A stretch of DNA of 64,000 nucleotides. It comes from Synechococcus sp. CC9311. Lineage in GTDB: Bacteria > Cyanobacteriota > Cyanobacteriia > PCC-6307 > Cyanobiaceae. Position numbers and translations under genes: made by a program. The notes below the pieces were generated by a model, which saw only the letters and a list, made by a program, of their open reading frames with translations, did no database searches and was not told the DNA's origin. Position 1 is the first letter of the stretch, and each line of letters starts with the position of its first letter. This document shows, one piece after another, positions 4,459 to 56,930 of this stretch. The stretch lies in assembly GCF_000014585.1 (NCBI RefSeq), contig NC_008319.1:930001-994000 (forward strand). The letters are read 5' to 3'.

Positions 4459-5787
4459 GTCAGCCCCAATCGGAATCTGGCTCCAGTGTCAGCTGAGCTC
4501 GATGATCTGGGCCGTCTGATGGTGGGGGGCTGTCGTTTGAGCGAACTTGCAGAGCGATATGGAACCCCTCTTTACGTTCTAGATGAGGTGACTATTCGCG
4601 CCTCGGCTCAGGAGTATCGGGAAGCCTTGAAACGTCATTACCCCGGCGATTCTCTTGCTGTTTACGCATCCAAAGCCCATAGCTCCTTGGCTCTTACAGG
4701 CCTCGTGGCTTCAGAAGGACTTGGTCTGGATGCCGTTTCAGCTGGAGAGCTGCTCACAGCTCTGGATGGAGGGATGCCACCAGAACGCATGGTGTTGCAT
4801 GGAAATAACAAGTCTGTGGAGGAGCTCGCCCTCGCTTACAGCCATGGGGTGATGGTGGTGGCCGATAACCAGCACGATTTGGATTGTCTAGCTGAGCTTG
4901 TTCCTCAAGGTGGAGGACCGGTTCGCTTGATGCTGCGTTTCACGCCTGGCATTGAGTGCCACACCCACGAGTACATCCGAACGGGACACCTCGACAGCAA
5001 ATTTGGGTTTGATCCTGATCAGTTGCAGCCCGTGCTGACAGCATTGGCTGGGTGTGCTTGGGCCCGTGTTGAAGGTCTACACGCGCACATCGGGTCGCAG
5101 ATTTTTGAACTGGATCCGCATCGGGATTTGGCAGCTGTAATGGCTGATGCTCTCAAGTTGGCCCGGGAGCTTGGTCATCCAGTCCGTGATCTCAATGTCG
5201 GCGGGGGACTTGGAATTCGCTATGTCGAATCCGACGATCCACCGTCGATTGATGCCTGGGTCAAGGTGGTGGCAGAAGCCGTGACCCTGGCGTGCCGTGA
5301 GCGCGGTCTTGAGCTGCCTCGTTTGATGTGCGAGCCCGGTCGTTCTCTTGTGGCATCCAGTGGCGTGACGGTTTACACCGTGGGCGCGCGCAAAGTGGTT
5401 CCAGGCATTCGCACCTACGTCTCGGTTGACGGAGGGATGAGCGACAACCCGCGTCCGATTACCTACCAGTCTCTCTACACGGCATGTCTTGCTGACCGTC
5501 CTTTGGCGCAGGCAGACGAAACAATCACTTTGGCCGGGAAGCACTGTGAATCAGGCGACGTATTGCTCAAGGATCTGTCGTTTCCGTCCTGCCGAAGCGG
5601 TGAGGTGCTGGTGGTTCTGGCGACGGGTGCCTACAACCTCTCGATGAGCTCGAACTACAACAGGATTCCGAGACCTGCTGCTGTGTTGGTTAATCAAGGA
5701 GAGGCTGAATTGATTCAGAGGCGTGAGCAGCCTGAGGATTTACTTCGTTATGACCTGATGCCAGATCGCCTGCGCTCGGTAAAGTGA
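4426..5787 (+). CDS. lysA: Diaminopimelate decarboxylase
   Basis: LysA removes CO2 from meso-diaminopimelate to give L-lysine, the last step of lysine synthesis, using pyridoxal phosphate. The fold III PLP enzyme is clear: the PLP lysine lies in VYASKAHSSLALTGL, the glycine-rich phosphate site is NVGGGLGIRY, HIGSQIFELDPH lines the barrel, and CEPGRSLVASSG and GAYNLSMSSNYN complete the active site. ATG 4426 gives 453 residues. A TTG at 4396 would add ten residues but lies further into the divergent acetyltransferase. It is the first gene of a plus-strand run with cdaA and uppS. Confidence 0.96.
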   Translation: MATPYESGCDHVSPNRNLAPVSAELDDLGRLMVGGCRLSELAERYGTPLYVLDEVTIRASAQEYREALKRHYPGDSLAVYASKAHSSLALTGLVASEGLGLDAVSAGELLTALDGGMPPERMVLHGNNKSVEELALAYSHGVMVVADNQHDLDCLAELVPQGGGPVRLMLRFTPGIECHTHEYIRTGHLDSKFGFDPDQLQPVLTALAGCAWARVEGLHAHIGSQIFELDPHRDLAAVMADALKLARELGHPVRDLNVGGGLGIRYVESDDPPSIDAWVKVVAEAVTLACRERGLELPRLMCEPGRSLVASSGVTVYTVGARKVVPGIRTYVSVDGGMSDNPRPITYQSLYTACLADRPLAQADETITLAGKHCESGDVLLKDLSFPSCRSGEVLVVLATGAYNLSMSSNYNRIPRPAAVLVNQGEAELIQRREQPEDLLRYDLMPDRLRSVK

Positions 5788-7470: not shown

Positions 7471-8457
7471 ATGACGGAAGCGGTTGAAGTGCGCCATGAC
7501 TGGACACGAAGCGAGATCGAAGCGCTTCTGGATCTTCCCCTGATGGATTTGCTTTGGCGTGCTCAGGGGGTTCATCGTGCATCGAACCCTGGATATCACG
7601 TTCAGTTGGCCTCGCTATTGAGTGTCAAAACCGGTGGGTGCGAAGAAGACTGTGCCTACTGTCCTCAATCGATGCATCACAGCAGTGATGTCACAGGCCA
7701 GCCCGAATTGCAGGTTGCGCCTGTCTTAGAGCGTGCCAAAGCTGCTAAGCAGGCTGGTGCGGATAGGTTTTGCATGGGCTGGGCTTGGCGTGAAATCCGC
7801 GATGGTGCCCCATTCGAGGCGATGTTGCAGATGGTGAGTGGCGTGCGTGCCTTGGGGATGGAAGCCTGCGTCACGGCCGGAATGCTCACCGATGGCCAGG
7901 CCCAACGTCTTGCGAAGGCGGGGCTAACGGCGTACAACCACAACCTCGATACCAGTCCTGAGCACTACGACAAAATCATCACTACTCGGACTTTCCAAGA
8001 ACGTCTTGAGACGCTTGAGCGGGTGCGTCAAGCGGGAGTGACCCTTTGCTGCGGCGGCATCATTGGCATGGGGGAAACCATTGGGGACCGGGCCTCCATG
8101 TTGCAGGTGCTGGCATCGATCAACCCCCACCCAGAGAGCGTCCCGATCAACGCTTTGGTGGCGGTCGAGGGCACTCCTCTCGAGGAACTCCCTCCCATCG
8201 ATCCGATCGAGTTGGTTCGCATGATTGCCGTCACGAGGATCCTGATGCCTGGCAGTCGGGTTCGCCTGAGTGCAGGTCGGGAACAGCTCAGCAAAGAGGC
8301 TCAGATTTTGTGTCTGCAGGCTGGGGCGGATTCGATTTTTTATGGCGAAACGCTTCTCACGACAGGAAACCCTGCTGTGGAGGCTGATCGTGAGCTGCTT
8401 CGCACCGCCGGCGTGCAGGCCAACTGGCTTTCTGCTTCAGAGAAGCTTGCCGCGTAG
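7471..8457 (+). CDS. bioB: Biotin synthase
   Basis: BioB inserts sulfur into dethiobiotin using radical SAM chemistry and a sacrificial [2Fe-2S] cluster. The SAM cluster motif is [13 protein letters not shown] (CxxxCxxC). The later conserved arginine region [16 protein letters not shown] and [12 protein letters not shown] are characteristic of BioB. ATG 7471 is preferred over the adjacent TTG 7468. The length of 328 matches the family. It lies 50 bases after uppS in the same orientation. Confidence 0.96.
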
Positions 8458-8560
8458 TTCAGTCTCTAGTTGTGGTGGCTTTGACTGCGTGAATGGATCT
8501 TCTGAGATCTCTTGCTTTGGCTCGAACGAAACGACATAACGACTTTTTCTTTTCAGATCA

Positions 8561-8776
8561 GTGGCTCAATATCTTTTACGAGATGGGACACAAGGAACCG
8601 TCTCATCCGACCCCTCAAGCTTTGACGTGCTCACCTATCAGAAACTGTCGGGGGAATCCGTTCATGCAGCTCTGACCATTCAGGCTGAGAGCGACATTTT
8701 GAGGTCAGTTGATCTTGGTCGGCTTGTTGAATTGAGCGATGATCACCCTGTCTTCAGCAGTGCTGTTGTTGCCTGA
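8561..8776 (+). CDS. Conserved small protein of unknown function upstream of trhO
   Basis: This 71-residue frame begins at GTG 8561 with AQYLLRDGTQGTVSSD and has no signal peptide or membrane segment. It is slightly acidic, and I recognise no domain. Its TGA overlaps the ATG of the rhodanese gene by one base (TGATG), strong evidence for translation and coupling. Probably a lineage-restricted cyanobacterial protein. Confidence 0.65.
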   Translation: MAQYLLRDGTQGTVSSDPSSFDVLTYQKLSGESVHAALTIQAESDILRSVDLGRLVELSDDHPVFSSAVVA

Positions 8777-47548: not shown

Positions 47549-48103
47549 CTAATTGCTCGCAGCATGGCAAACAGCGTTTAATGTATGTACATCCGCTGCG
47601 CTGGCAGGTTGATTGCCATTGATTAGACCTTGCTGACAATTTGCTTGAGCATTCACCCTAATTCCATTAACATAATAGGTGAAATCAACACTTGTAGGCT
47701 GCGGTGATGATTGCTGAAAGTCGTAATCCAGATTGCGGTTGGTTTCTGGAACTATAATTGTAGGGGAATTTTGTGCTCGTGAGTTGGCAATCGCAGAGGT
47801 GATGATTGCTCCTGTTGCTAAGCCAGCTATACCCCATTCAGCTCTTCTATTTGGATACCAGCCCCAATTATTATGATGCCATCCATTGCCGTGATGCCAT
47901 CCGCCACCGTGATGGCCTCCACCGTGATGGCCTCCACCGTGATGTCCGCCTCCACCGTGATGTCCGCCTCCACCGTGATGTCCGCCTCCACCGTGATGTC
48001 CGCCTCCACCGTGATGGCCGCCTCCACCGTGATGGTGCCCAGCTTGCATTGGCATGACTCCTGTCAACGTTAATGCTGATGCCAACAAGAAAGTACGCAG
48101 CAT
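47549..48103 (-). CDS. Secreted histidine-glycine repeat protein
   Basis: 184 residues. A signal peptide (MLRTFLLASALTLTGVMPMQ, cleaved after QAG) leads straight into HHHGGGGHHGGGG repeats, about eight units of HHGGG or HHGGGG from residue 22 to 70, then HNNWGWYPNRR. A hydrophobic, glycine-rich helix (about 95-108, AGLATGAIITSAIANS) follows, then an ordered C-terminus with a Cys pair (NCQQGL, AVCHAAS). The repeats should bind Ni, Cu, Zn or Co at the cell surface. The repeat tract is prone to length change. Confidence 0.75.
   Translation of the reverse strand: MLRTFLLASALTLTGVMPMQAGHHHGGGGHHGGGGHHGGGGHHGGGGHHGGGGHHGGGHHGGGHHGGGWHHGNGWHHNNWGWYPNRRAEWGIAGLATGAIITSAIANSRAQNSPTIIVPETNRNLDYDFQQSSPQPTSVDFTYYVNGIRVNAQANCQQGLINGNQPASAADVHTLNAVCHAASN
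47906..48040 (-). repeat. Tandem repeat encoding HHGGG units
   Basis: Units of 15-18 bases with the core CCACCGTGATG on the plus strand recur about eight times, so length variation between strains is likely. Confidence 0.85.
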
Positions 48104-54759: not shown

Positions 54760-55380
54760 ATGTCTCCAGTGTCTCCGCGTAACACCGCTTTACTACTTAT
54801 AGGCTTTCAGAGGGATTATTTTGACCCTGATGGAATTCTTTACTCTGTTGTTGAAGAATCTCATCGCATTTCTGGAACCCTCGAGCATACAATCCAAGTC
54901 ATCGATAGCATCTTGGACACATCGATTACTATTGTTAATACACCAATCGTATTCAGTGAAAGTTATCATGAGATAGAGAATCCGATGGGTATTTTAAAAG
55001 CAATCAAAGATGCAGAGGCATTCAAAGTTGGTACAACTGGTGCTGAAACCCTGCCGCAGATTGAAAAGTATGGTGATCGAATTGTAATCATTCCAGGGAA
55101 GCGAGGTTTCAATGCATTTTCTAATACCGAATTGAAGGACTTGCTTGTTAAAAAAGGAATAGAACGACTTGTGATTGCAGGCTGCGTGACTTCTCTTTGT
55201 GTTAACGCCACTGCACTTGCTGCTAAGGAAAACGGCTTTGAAGTAACGATTTTATCCGACTGCACGTCCAGTCGAACGCCAGTTGAACAAGATATGTTCT
55301 GTAAGGAAATTTTTCCATTATTCACTGATGTAGTTGATCATAACGAATTTGCTAAAGCAATTGTTCGTGATTCTGACTGA
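54760..55380 (+). CDS. Isochorismatase-like cysteine hydrolase with Gly at the usual Asp
   Basis: 206 residues, isochorismatase fold. The Lys of the triad is in IIPGKRGFNAFSN (K114) and the nucleophile is in AGCVTSLCVNATALAA (Cys147, with Cys142 nearby). The first triad residue, normally the Asp of LVIDMQNDF, is replaced: the protein reads LLLIGFQRDYFDPDG, with Gly15. I recall related cysteine hydrolases with the same LIG-x-Q-x-D form. It shares one base with the next gene, so it is coupled to a sensor kinase. The hydrolysed amide or ester is unknown. Confidence 0.88.
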   Translation: MSPVSPRNTALLLIGFQRDYFDPDGILYSVVEESHRISGTLEHTIQVIDSILDTSITIVNTPIVFSESYHEIENPMGILKAIKDAEAFKVGTTGAETLPQIEKYGDRIVIIPGKRGFNAFSNTELKDLLVKKGIERLVIAGCVTSLCVNATALAAKENGFEVTILSDCTSSRTPVEQDMFCKEIFPLFTDVVDHNEFAKAIVRDSD

Positions 55381-56930
55381 TGACTATTGATCGTCATCAT
55401 GACCCAGACGCTACAGCAGTTGCTCAGTCAAGGCTAATTGAACGTCTTGCAGAGTCAGAACGAAGTATTAGGGATATTCTCGTTAACCTTCCGGTTATTG
55501 TCGCTCGTTTTGATAGGCATGGTAAAGGAGAAATTCAATTTGTTAATATGGCTTGGAATAGAATATTAGGCTTTGATATTAACTCAAGCATCGGAACTGC
55601 AATTGACTCATACGTGTTACCAGATGATCTAGAAAAGTGGAGAACACTCGTTAAGAATACTAAAAATACTGATCATGATGTCTCTGATAGTCAAGTTCGC
55701 TTTAAAGACTCAAAGGGTGAAATACACTGGCTAAAACTGAAGTTTGATCAGCGCGAAACTGGTGAGGCCATTGTCTTAATGGAAGACTTTACCGATAGAA
55801 GGCGTTTAGATGCCGAAGTGTTGCGTGCTCAGAGATTGGAGAGTATTGGCAGGCTTGCAGGTGGCTTAGCGCATGATTTCAATAATCTTCTGCAAGTTAT
55901 CATGGGGTATATTGATCTTAGTCAGAGATTAAATAACAACCAAGGGATTGATGCTAAGTATTTAAAGATTGCGAGTCAGGCTTGTCTCCGTGCAGCTGGG
56001 CTGACTAAGCAAATGTTGTCTTTTAGCAAAGGTGGAAATCCTGTTAGAATGATCTGGGCGTTGCAAGATGTTGTAAAAGAAGCGATGGAAATGAGCTTGC
56101 ATGGCTCTAACGTAAAAGCTTTTATCGAATGTGAGTCATCATTGCCTAATGTTGATATTGACTCTGGACAGATACATCAAGTCTTTAACAATATTATTCT
56201 GAATGCAGAACAATCAATGCCAGAAGGTGGTCAAATTAATCTCCATATTCGCAATGAATGGGATCGCAAAGATGGCAATTCAAGAGAGATGGTTGTTGTT
56301 GAGATAACTGATTGTGGAATTGGCATCAAACCAACGGATATGGAGAAGATTTTTGATCCGTTCTTTACGACTAAAGACCATGGCACAGGTCTTGGTTTGA
56401 CAAGTGCATATTGGATTGTCAAGCGGCATGATGGCGACTTGCAAATTAAAAGTGACATTGGCAAAGGAACGGTTGTTCGTGTTTCTTTGCCAGCTGTTCG
56501 GAATGCTGATACTCCTGTTAAGTCAGTAGTCGTCGATCAAAAGCCTATGAATTGTGCTCGAATATTAATTATGGACGATGAAGATATGGTGAGAACATCT
56601 CTTCGCCTAATGCTTGAAGAACATGGACATTCTGTTACTAGTACTGAGCATGGTCAGGAGTGTTTAGATGTCTATGTACGTGCCTTGGATGAGGGGGAGC
56701 CTTTTGATTTGGTGATACTGGATCTTACTATTTCTGGAGGCAAGGGCGGAATATGGACTATTGATCAGCTGAAAACAGTCAACTCATCAATCAAGGCAAT
56801 TGTAGCAAGTGGATACAGCCAAGATTCAATTTTGGCGGATTATCGAAAAAGTGGTTTTAGTGCTGTCCTGCAAAAACCATTCGATATGCAATCTCTTGCT
56901 AAATCATTGGCTAACGTTTTGAGACATTGA
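55380..56930 (+). CDS. Hybrid sensor histidine kinase: PAS, HisKA, ATPase, receiver
   Basis: 516 residues, no membrane segment, so a soluble sensor. Order: a helical start, PAS domain (about 25-130) with IVARFDRHGKGEIQFVNMAW, H-box LAGGLAHDFNNLLQVIMGYI (His165), N-box HQVFNNIILNAEQSM, G1 DCGIGI, F-box IFDPFFTTKDHGTGLGL, then a receiver (about 385-515) with RILIMDDEDMV and phosphoacceptor Asp448 in LVILDLTISGG. It is directly coupled to the hydrolase. Phosphotransfer to an external regulator or only to its own receiver cannot be told. Confidence 0.94.
   Translation: MTIDRHHDPDATAVAQSRLIERLAESERSIRDILVNLPVIVARFDRHGKGEIQFVNMAWNRILGFDINSSIGTAIDSYVLPDDLEKWRTLVKNTKNTDHDVSDSQVRFKDSKGEIHWLKLKFDQRETGEAIVLMEDFTDRRRLDAEVLRAQRLESIGRLAGGLAHDFNNLLQVIMGYIDLSQRLNNNQGIDAKYLKIASQACLRAAGLTKQMLSFSKGGNPVRMIWALQDVVKEAMEMSLHGSNVKAFIECESSLPNVDIDSGQIHQVFNNIILNAEQSMPEGGQINLHIRNEWDRKDGNSREMVVVEITDCGIGIKPTDMEKIFDPFFTTKDHGTGLGLTSAYWIVKRHDGDLQIKSDIGKGTVVRVSLPAVRNADTPVKSVVVDQKPMNCARILIMDDEDMVRTSLRLMLEEHGHSVTSTEHGQECLDVYVRALDEGEPFDLVILDLTISGGKGGIWTIDQLKTVNSSIKAIVASGYSQDSILADYRKSGFSAVLQKPFDMQSLAKSLANVLRH

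Follow-up and report, generated by a model that had tools for sequence, protein, structure and literature searches.

Two ORFs on the forward strand make up the locus, one encoding a hydrolase-like protein of 206 residues and the other a kinase of 516 residues (Table 1). They lie within the 64-kb window, by which we mean the whole stretch of DNA that was analyzed, in a 2.6 Mb genome. The stop codon of the hydrolase gene (TGA, 55378–55380) and the start codon of the kinase gene (ATG, 55380–55382) have one base in common. An earlier note on this DNA had described a one-base overlap between an isochorismatase-like hydrolase and a PAS-HisKA-ATPase-receiver kinase, and the ORFs, the TGATG junction and the Pfam assignments all agree with that description. 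Judged from the junction itself, the overlap likely provides translational coupling. The closest named relative found at the locus, in a scan of species genomes, is Synechococcus sp. AG-679-C18, with a hydrolase identity of 90%.

The hydrolase matches the Pfam Isochorismatase family (PF00857) with 135.8 bits against a cut-off of 27, and this is the sole Pfam family detected in it at E ≤ 0.001. In the kinase, PAS_3, HisKA, HATPase_c and Response_reg all score above their own Pfam cut-offs, and the HDFNN phospho-histidine box (H165), the ATP-binding motifs and the receiver Asp are retained. With HisKA, HATPase_c and a receiver, the protein has the makeup of a hybrid histidine kinase. It shares the PAS-HisKA-HATPase(-receiver) arrangement with CckA/AtoS-like PAS hybrid kinases, and its top NCBIfam scores come from the CckA and AtoS models, but it falls short of the cut-offs of these models (e.g. 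235 of 1000 bits for CckA and 220 of 646 for AtoS). By hydropathy in 19-residue windows, a crude measure, the kinase peaks at 0.98 and therefore appears to have no membrane span, in line with its earlier description as soluble. The hydrolase peaks at 1.92 over residues 137–155, which correspond to the core strand of the fold and the Cys loop and were not taken as a span.

Table 1. Features of the hydrolase–kinase locus, in window coordinates.
Feature	Position	Strand	Basis
Isochorismatase-fold hydrolase-like protein, Gly15 clade, 206 aa; proposed stand-alone input subunit	54760..55380	+	ORF, Pfam PF00857, tree clade
Gly15 codon at the catalytic Asp position	54802..54804	+	Gly 50/51, Ser 1/51; Glu 5/5 outgroup rows
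Glu32 codon, clade-specific acid; candidate displaced acid	54853..54855	+	E 48/51, D 2/51, Q 1/51; Lys or Ala in the 5 Glu-type rows
Lys114 codon, catalytic Lys retained	55099..55101	+	50/51
Cys147 codon, nucleophile retained	55198..55200	+	50/51; exception L113, where the kinase is broken too
TGATG stop/start overlap	55378..55382	+	1-base or 4-base overlaps recurrent in relatives
Soluble hybrid histidine kinase, 516 aa	55380..56930	+	ORF, Pfam, hydropathy
Helix motif, kinase residues 10–24, DATAVAQSRLIERLA; proposed docking element	55407..55451	+	Motif matrix and profile searches
PAS domain, limits approximate	55467..55799	+	Pfam PAS_8 30–89 (below cut-off), PAS_3 54–119; models of relative L040
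HisKA, residues 157–219, phospho-acceptor His165 in HDFNN	55848..56036	+	Pfam, alignment
HATPase_c, residues 261–372	56160..56495	+	Pfam
Receiver, residues 395–510, Asp448	56562..56909	+	Pfam, alignment

The GC content of the gene pair is 0.39–0.40, against 0.39–0.59 across the window. It sits in a stretch of low GC (37000–60000, 0.39–0.49 per 2 kb) with few ORFs above 200 residues, which may be a genomic island; no tRNA gene was detected in the 64-kb window. The same stretch contains, by reading, a secreted-looking protein with long Gly-His repeats (GGGHH; 47549–48103, minus strand), a possible metal binder. When the hydrolase and the kinase were compared by BLAST with the 240 window ORFs of at least 70 residues, only self matches were returned at E ≤ 1. 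At that sensitivity, the earlier observation that the window has no separate output regulator holds.

Relatives of the hydrolase were collected as 51 family loci, 40 in a first set and 11 found later, from Cyanobacteria, Planctomycetota, Acidobacteriota, Verrucomicrobiota and one viral contig. These are loci and not independent events: L102/L104, L106/L107, L109/L110, L079/L080 and L099/L100 are near-copies, and L170 and L171 lie in the same genome. The species-genome scan contributed 13 loci, of which 12 are family members, and the viral-contig scan one. Outside the counts are a partial copy in G229 (L056/L061, at a contig end), L014 and, Glu-type rows excepted, matches to profile A1 below 240 bits.

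Position 15, where the wider superfamily has its catalytic Asp according to PMC7948467 and to the Asp rows of our alignment, is Gly in 50 of the 51 members and Ser in the remaining one (L174). The scans behind L002–L013 (12 loci, six peptide patterns, one bearing Gly15) and L042 (two patterns, one bearing Gly15) favored Gly among these loci. Nevertheless, the 37 loci from whole-genome searches independent of a Gly-bearing pattern have Gly in 36 cases and Ser in one, and the window locus is likewise independent of the Gly-bearing scans. Lys114 and Cys147 are each retained in 50 of 51 members, with Arg in L108 and Tyr in L113, respectively, while Gln17, Asp19 and Glu176 are invariant (51/51). 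The earlier note had read Gly15 at the catalytic Asp position alongside a conserved Lys and Cys and had raised the idea of a hydrolase subfamily with Gly at this site; the codons and the family alignment bear out both.

In a tree of 49 rows, in which several long branches were flagged and some groupings cross phyla, the 40 Gly rows form one clade with support of 100/100, and four Glu and five Asp rows fall outside it. The nearest outgroup seen is the Glu-type: 3kl2, L081, L115, L120, L121 and L175. On this evidence, Gly has taken the place of the catalytic Asp within one clade that retains Lys and Cys. Compared with five Glu-type rows, several positions are altered jointly: 15 (E to G, or S in one member), 20–21 (F-x to Y/W-F), 32 (K/A to E/D/Q), 118 (D to N, with C in a single outgroup row), 145 (N to S, except for A in one member) and 172 (T/L/V to R/K). 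In the alignment, these joint changes look like a rebuilt pocket rather than decay.

Otherwise, the protein belongs with the Isochorismatase superfamily by sequence and fold and by its Lys and Cys; it is the catalytic Asp of motif I that is absent. The clade shares its Pfam domain, fold, Lys, Cys and Gln17 with nicotinamidase, BiuH, TrtA, RutB, N-carbamoylsarcosine amidase and 3kl2, and differs from these isochorismatase-like hydrolases in having Gly (Ser in one member) for the catalytic Asp. The closest solved structure by both sequence and fold is 3kl2, whose Glu aligns with Gly15. A predicted structure of the relative L040 superposes on it with Z 30.8 and an rmsd of 1.6 over 199 aligned residues; many of the closest folds to this model are amidases, although the best one, 3kl2, is of unknown function. 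None of the named amidohydrolase equivalogs in NCBIfam was reached by the window hydrolase, for which BiuH scored best (54.3 of 370 bits), followed by YcaC (35.8 of 310), PncA (33.7 of 174) and RutB (30.3 of 377.95). A triad variant Asp-Lys-Gly, with Asp kept and Cys lost, is described for EntB and YecD (PMC8849098); it is the opposite change to that of the Gly15 clade.

What might the loss of the Asp mean? In TrtA, the Asp is described as stabilizing the Lys and binding substrate, with a proposed role in activating water for the second step, and the Lys is held to lower the pKa of the Cys (PMC7948467). By extension from this account of TrtA, a protein that has lost the Asp and kept the Lys and Cys could bind or even be acylated by a ligand, with release impaired. 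The earlier note had named, as an outcome that would speak against its reading, alignment to active enzymes with a displaced Asp nearby. No Asp is conserved beyond the family's usual Asp19, but an acid specific to the clade was found at position 32 (E in 48, D in two and Q in one of the 51; Lys or Ala in the five Glu-type relatives), and Glu32 is kept as a candidate. A redox relay through Cys147, Cys168 and Cys181 was also set aside, since Cys181 is variable (41/51).

Because a new acid, Glu32, arose in the clade, there is room for the altered chemistry that the earlier note had suggested. The protein would then still be an enzyme that makes or destroys a signal molecule, with a reactive Cys147–Lys114 pair and with Glu32, substrate or water in place of the Asp. 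Judging from the sequences, we regard this as possible but doubtful. The retention of Lys114 and Cys147, the three invariant residues, the new acid, the many amidases among the nearest folds (the best being 3kl2, of unknown function) and the influence of the Lys on the Cys reported for TrtA would all suit an enzyme. However, the several roles given to the TrtA Asp in that same text imply that Gly should cripple turnover, and Glu32 is itself replaced by Asp or Gln in three members. An enzyme would also have no need of the motif shared by its partner genes, which is described below.

A signalling gene follows the hydrolase on the same strand in 49 of the 51 loci, at distances from an overlap to 305 bases. 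The earlier note had set beforehand, as the outcome that would speak against the pairing, that the two genes are not neighbors in relatives; they are. The two exceptions are L006, at a contig end, and L042, on a viral contig without a partner. In L173, the partner ORF as read starts within the hydrolase and was counted as adjacent. Stop/start overlaps recur, including one before the Ser/Thr kinase of L099.

The partners comprise 44 histidine kinases (including a broken one in L113), two Ser/Thr kinases (L099 and L100), one Ser/Thr-histidine kinase (L101; Ser/Thr kinase, HisKA, HATPase and receiver, without PAS) and two PAS-GGDEF-EAL proteins (L170 and L174). Pfam typing covers 34 partners; the other 15 (L002, L005, L012, L013, L111, L113, L075, L077, L100, L104, L080, L107, L110, L165 and L168) were assigned from BLAST, H-box pattern or likeness. 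The partner of L005 runs off its contig, and that of L112 is split over two ORFs, the first of which was scanned. Histidine-kinase H-boxes are HDFNN-, HNFNN-, HEMRTP-, HELRTP-, HEIRTP- or HEINNP-like, and several of these kinases have no receiver. HisKA stays below the Pfam cut-off in L102, L106, L076, L173, L166, L169 and L164, among others, where HATPase_c passes. Going by these sequence assignments, the hydrolase adjoins a signalling gene almost invariably, and the outputs are of three unrelated kinds. Coupling to a hybrid histidine kinase, as first proposed, therefore describes the window pair well but is too narrow for the family, given the GGDEF-EAL partners and the kinases without a receiver.

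The same range of partners bears on the role of PAS. By Pfam, this domain is absent from the Ser/Thr kinase of L099 and the Ser/Thr-histidine kinase of L101, and L100 resembles L099. None was found at E ≤ 0.001 in the histidine kinases of L102 and L109 either, but these were not counted as PAS-less because the segment between motif and HisKA aligns with PAS in L102 and looks PAS-like by eye in L109. The earlier idea of a hydrolase that makes, destroys or binds a ligand for PAS is thus not supported as a general rule, and the notion that PAS reads a hydrolase product is rejected as one, since L099 and L101 have partners without PAS.

No relative of the window kinase was found alongside the Glu-type L081 or L115, and the next gene of L115 encodes an FMN oxidoreductase; the neighbors of L120 and L121 were judged from ORF lists only. 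Genome G1444 holds both types, the Gly-type L167 with a motif-bearing kinase and the Glu-type L175 in a locus without a motif gene (best 7.7 bits).

A short predicted helix, exemplified by ELHTQIQYRLIEQL and DIHIQATYRLTEAL, is common to 47 of the 49 partners, namely 33 training histidine kinases, L099–L101, of which L101 is a weak case, and the 11 later loci. In histidine kinases it is N-terminal, ahead of PAS (e.g. ELHTQIQYRLIEQL, DIHIQATYRLTEAL and DATAVAQSRLIERL), and in the two GGDEF-EAL partners it is N-terminal as well. The Ser/Thr kinases of L099 and L100 have it near the C-terminus (ELSTQIQYKLMEEL), and in L101 it lies between the two kinase parts (EISTQIQYRLQHA). One short element, predicted to be helical, is thus common to most outputs even where PAS is absent.

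A motif matrix was built from the 33 histidine-kinase partners, with L099 and L100 held out. It scored these two at 30.9 bits and L101 at 17.5, against a maximum of 17.9 among 749 other ORFs, which include chance ORFs. Of 1000 shuffles per sequence, none reached the score of L099 and one reached that of L101. The unchanged matrix gave 32.8–42.6 bits for the partners in all 11 later-found loci, which come from Cyanobacteria and thus have relatives in part of the training set. A profile of the motif was then used to search 48 genomes, half of which have the hydrolase. All 18 matches at E ≤ 1e-7 are in the gene adjoining the hydrolase; 15 of them were in training alignment A4, so that for these only their uniqueness is a test. 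Next in rank, at E 0.003, come the two held-out Ser/Thr kinases, and the best in a genome without the hydrolase has E 0.012. No strong profile match was obtained in six of the 24 hydrolase genomes. Those without one include G1202, G1298, G1240 and G1380, and the matrix still places the motif in the partners of L102 (G1298) and L106 (G1240; profile match E 0.44).

Since most partners have PAS as well, motif and PAS may have been inherited as one N-terminal block. Structure prediction lent docking no support: in AlphaFold models of L040 there was no sign of the hydrolase stabilizing the motif helix. When the hydrolase was joined to the kinase N-terminus, the mean pLDDT was 87.7 and that of the motif blocks ~58–73, compared with ~76 for the motif region when the kinase part was modeled by itself. 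Both predictions place the motif within one long helix (residues 219–244 when joined, 9–33 in the kinase part). L109 and L110 have histidine kinases both upstream and downstream of the hydrolase, and these carry no helix motif; they score at most 8.4 bits with the matrix and the pair is retained, so any docking through the motif would not be universal. This branch perhaps uses a different coupling.

Taken together, we suggest from these sequence patterns that the hydrolase-like protein is probably a stand-alone cytosolic input (sensor) subunit derived from an amidohydrolase and that the next gene encodes the matching output. A small molecule would bind to the rewired pocket of the input subunit, or modify the subunit there, and the subunit would dock on the shared helix of exchangeable outputs to set their kinase, phosphatase or c-di-GMP activity. 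In the window kinase, PAS and HisKA would relay the signal to the receiver of the same protein. A more specific, covalent version is speculative and in our view rather unlikely: Cys147, activated by Lys114, would be acylated by an amide-, carbamoyl- or ester-type metabolite, the thioester would persist because Gly replaces the Asp expected to activate water, and the acylated protein would drive any output that has the docking helix.

The same gene order and adjacency would be expected if the hydrolase-like protein were the target or effector of its signalling partner and not its input. We find this improbable, as a common target of three unrelated output chemistries is less simple than a common input and the motif sits at the N-terminus, on the input side, in histidine kinases and in both GGDEF-EAL proteins, though it is C-terminal in L099 and L100. 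That the genes merely travel together in an operon, with no functional link, is very improbable: patchy occurrence (5 of 31 genomes in the genus), low GC (0.39–0.40) and tree groupings across phyla would fit, but a neighboring partner in 49 of 51 loci, from several phyla and with different output classes, strong motif matches confined to partners and the joint decay in L113, where a Cys-to-Tyr hydrolase accompanies a truncated kinase, all argue against it.

The proposed input subunit has parallels in known systems. H-NOX and NosP are stand-alone sensors whose genes adjoin those of hybrid histidine kinases or GGDEF-EAL proteins. Like them, the Gly15 clade offers a small separate sensor gene in an operon with an exchangeable kinase or c-di-GMP output, an arrangement that 49 of the 51 loci fit; unlike them, it has the isochorismatase fold instead of their fold and cofactor, and also pairs with Ser/Thr kinases. 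No H-NOX or FIST domain was found in the window hydrolase by Pfam (E ≤ 0.001). The beta-lactam sensors BlaR1 and MecR1 derive from a hydrolase fold and keep the nucleophile. They, too, exemplify a hydrolase-fold sensor with a nucleophile, in which losing a second-step residue would favor a lasting acyl form, but their fold is a different one within a fused receptor, whereas the Gly15 protein is separate and its covalent adduct hypothetical.

Many cytosolic PAS kinases have no known signal. Here, a candidate ligand pocket and a potentially reactive cysteine reside in a separate protein genetically tied to the kinase, and therefore the signal could be fished out chemically. One input would serve three output chemistries across several phyla, and the short tag on most partners might serve as a portable docking element in sensor construction. 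Across the whole clade, the loss of one catalytic residue goes together with a tie to signalling genes. While the fold and the kinases are of known kinds, a Gly-for-Asp clade that keeps its Cys, with exchangeable outputs and a common helix, was not met in the titles and abstract beginnings surveyed. No paper on this pair was seen among them, with most subscription journals outside the coverage.

The module is uncommon, patchy and scattered over phyla. Within the genus, the hydrolase occurs in five of 31 genomes, the window genome included, and the kinase (E ≤ 1e-20) in the same five. A family-level search of 201 genomes gave matches at E ≤ 0.001 in 59, of which only G000, G006 and G098 were strong (E 1e-62 or better); the remainder, at E 1e-11 or weaker, are other isochorismatases. 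Wider profile searches (E ≤ 1e-30) returned matches in nine of 386 genomes of the window's own phylum (one Glu-type), three of 247 in the phylum of G228 (one Glu-type), one of 240 in the phylum of G224 (G224, the search center, itself), nine of 150 in the order of G228, 13 of 199 in the phylum of G223 and 13 of 388 in the order of G531. These rates are not unbiased because the centers were known carriers and the searches overlap. Only part of the first-look candidates was scored in large genomes (e.g. 8 of 17), so absences there are not proven.

In five loci there is an additional large gene. L075–L077 have one of ~1260 residues after the kinase, and a similar-sized ORF occupies the same place in L164 and L165. 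The gene of L076, the only one scanned, has carbamoyltransferase and methyltransferase domains and may thus point to carbamoyl compounds. In the other loci, where most flanks are unannotated, no common third gene was noticed.

Among plasmid records, 463 had a match to the hydrolase, all below 60% identity (best 33.9% among the 30 matches listed), and the two examined, H1 and H5, are Glu-type. Phage records gave two matches, both to nicotinamidase only. The viral contig L042, with helicase-like and single-strand-binding-like ORFs by reading, carries an orphan hydrolase of the Gly clade without a partner (5007–5597) and, at 7909–8700 on the minus strand, an ORF that by eye resembles a membrane protein with a PAS stretch. 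The contig might interfere with a host module.
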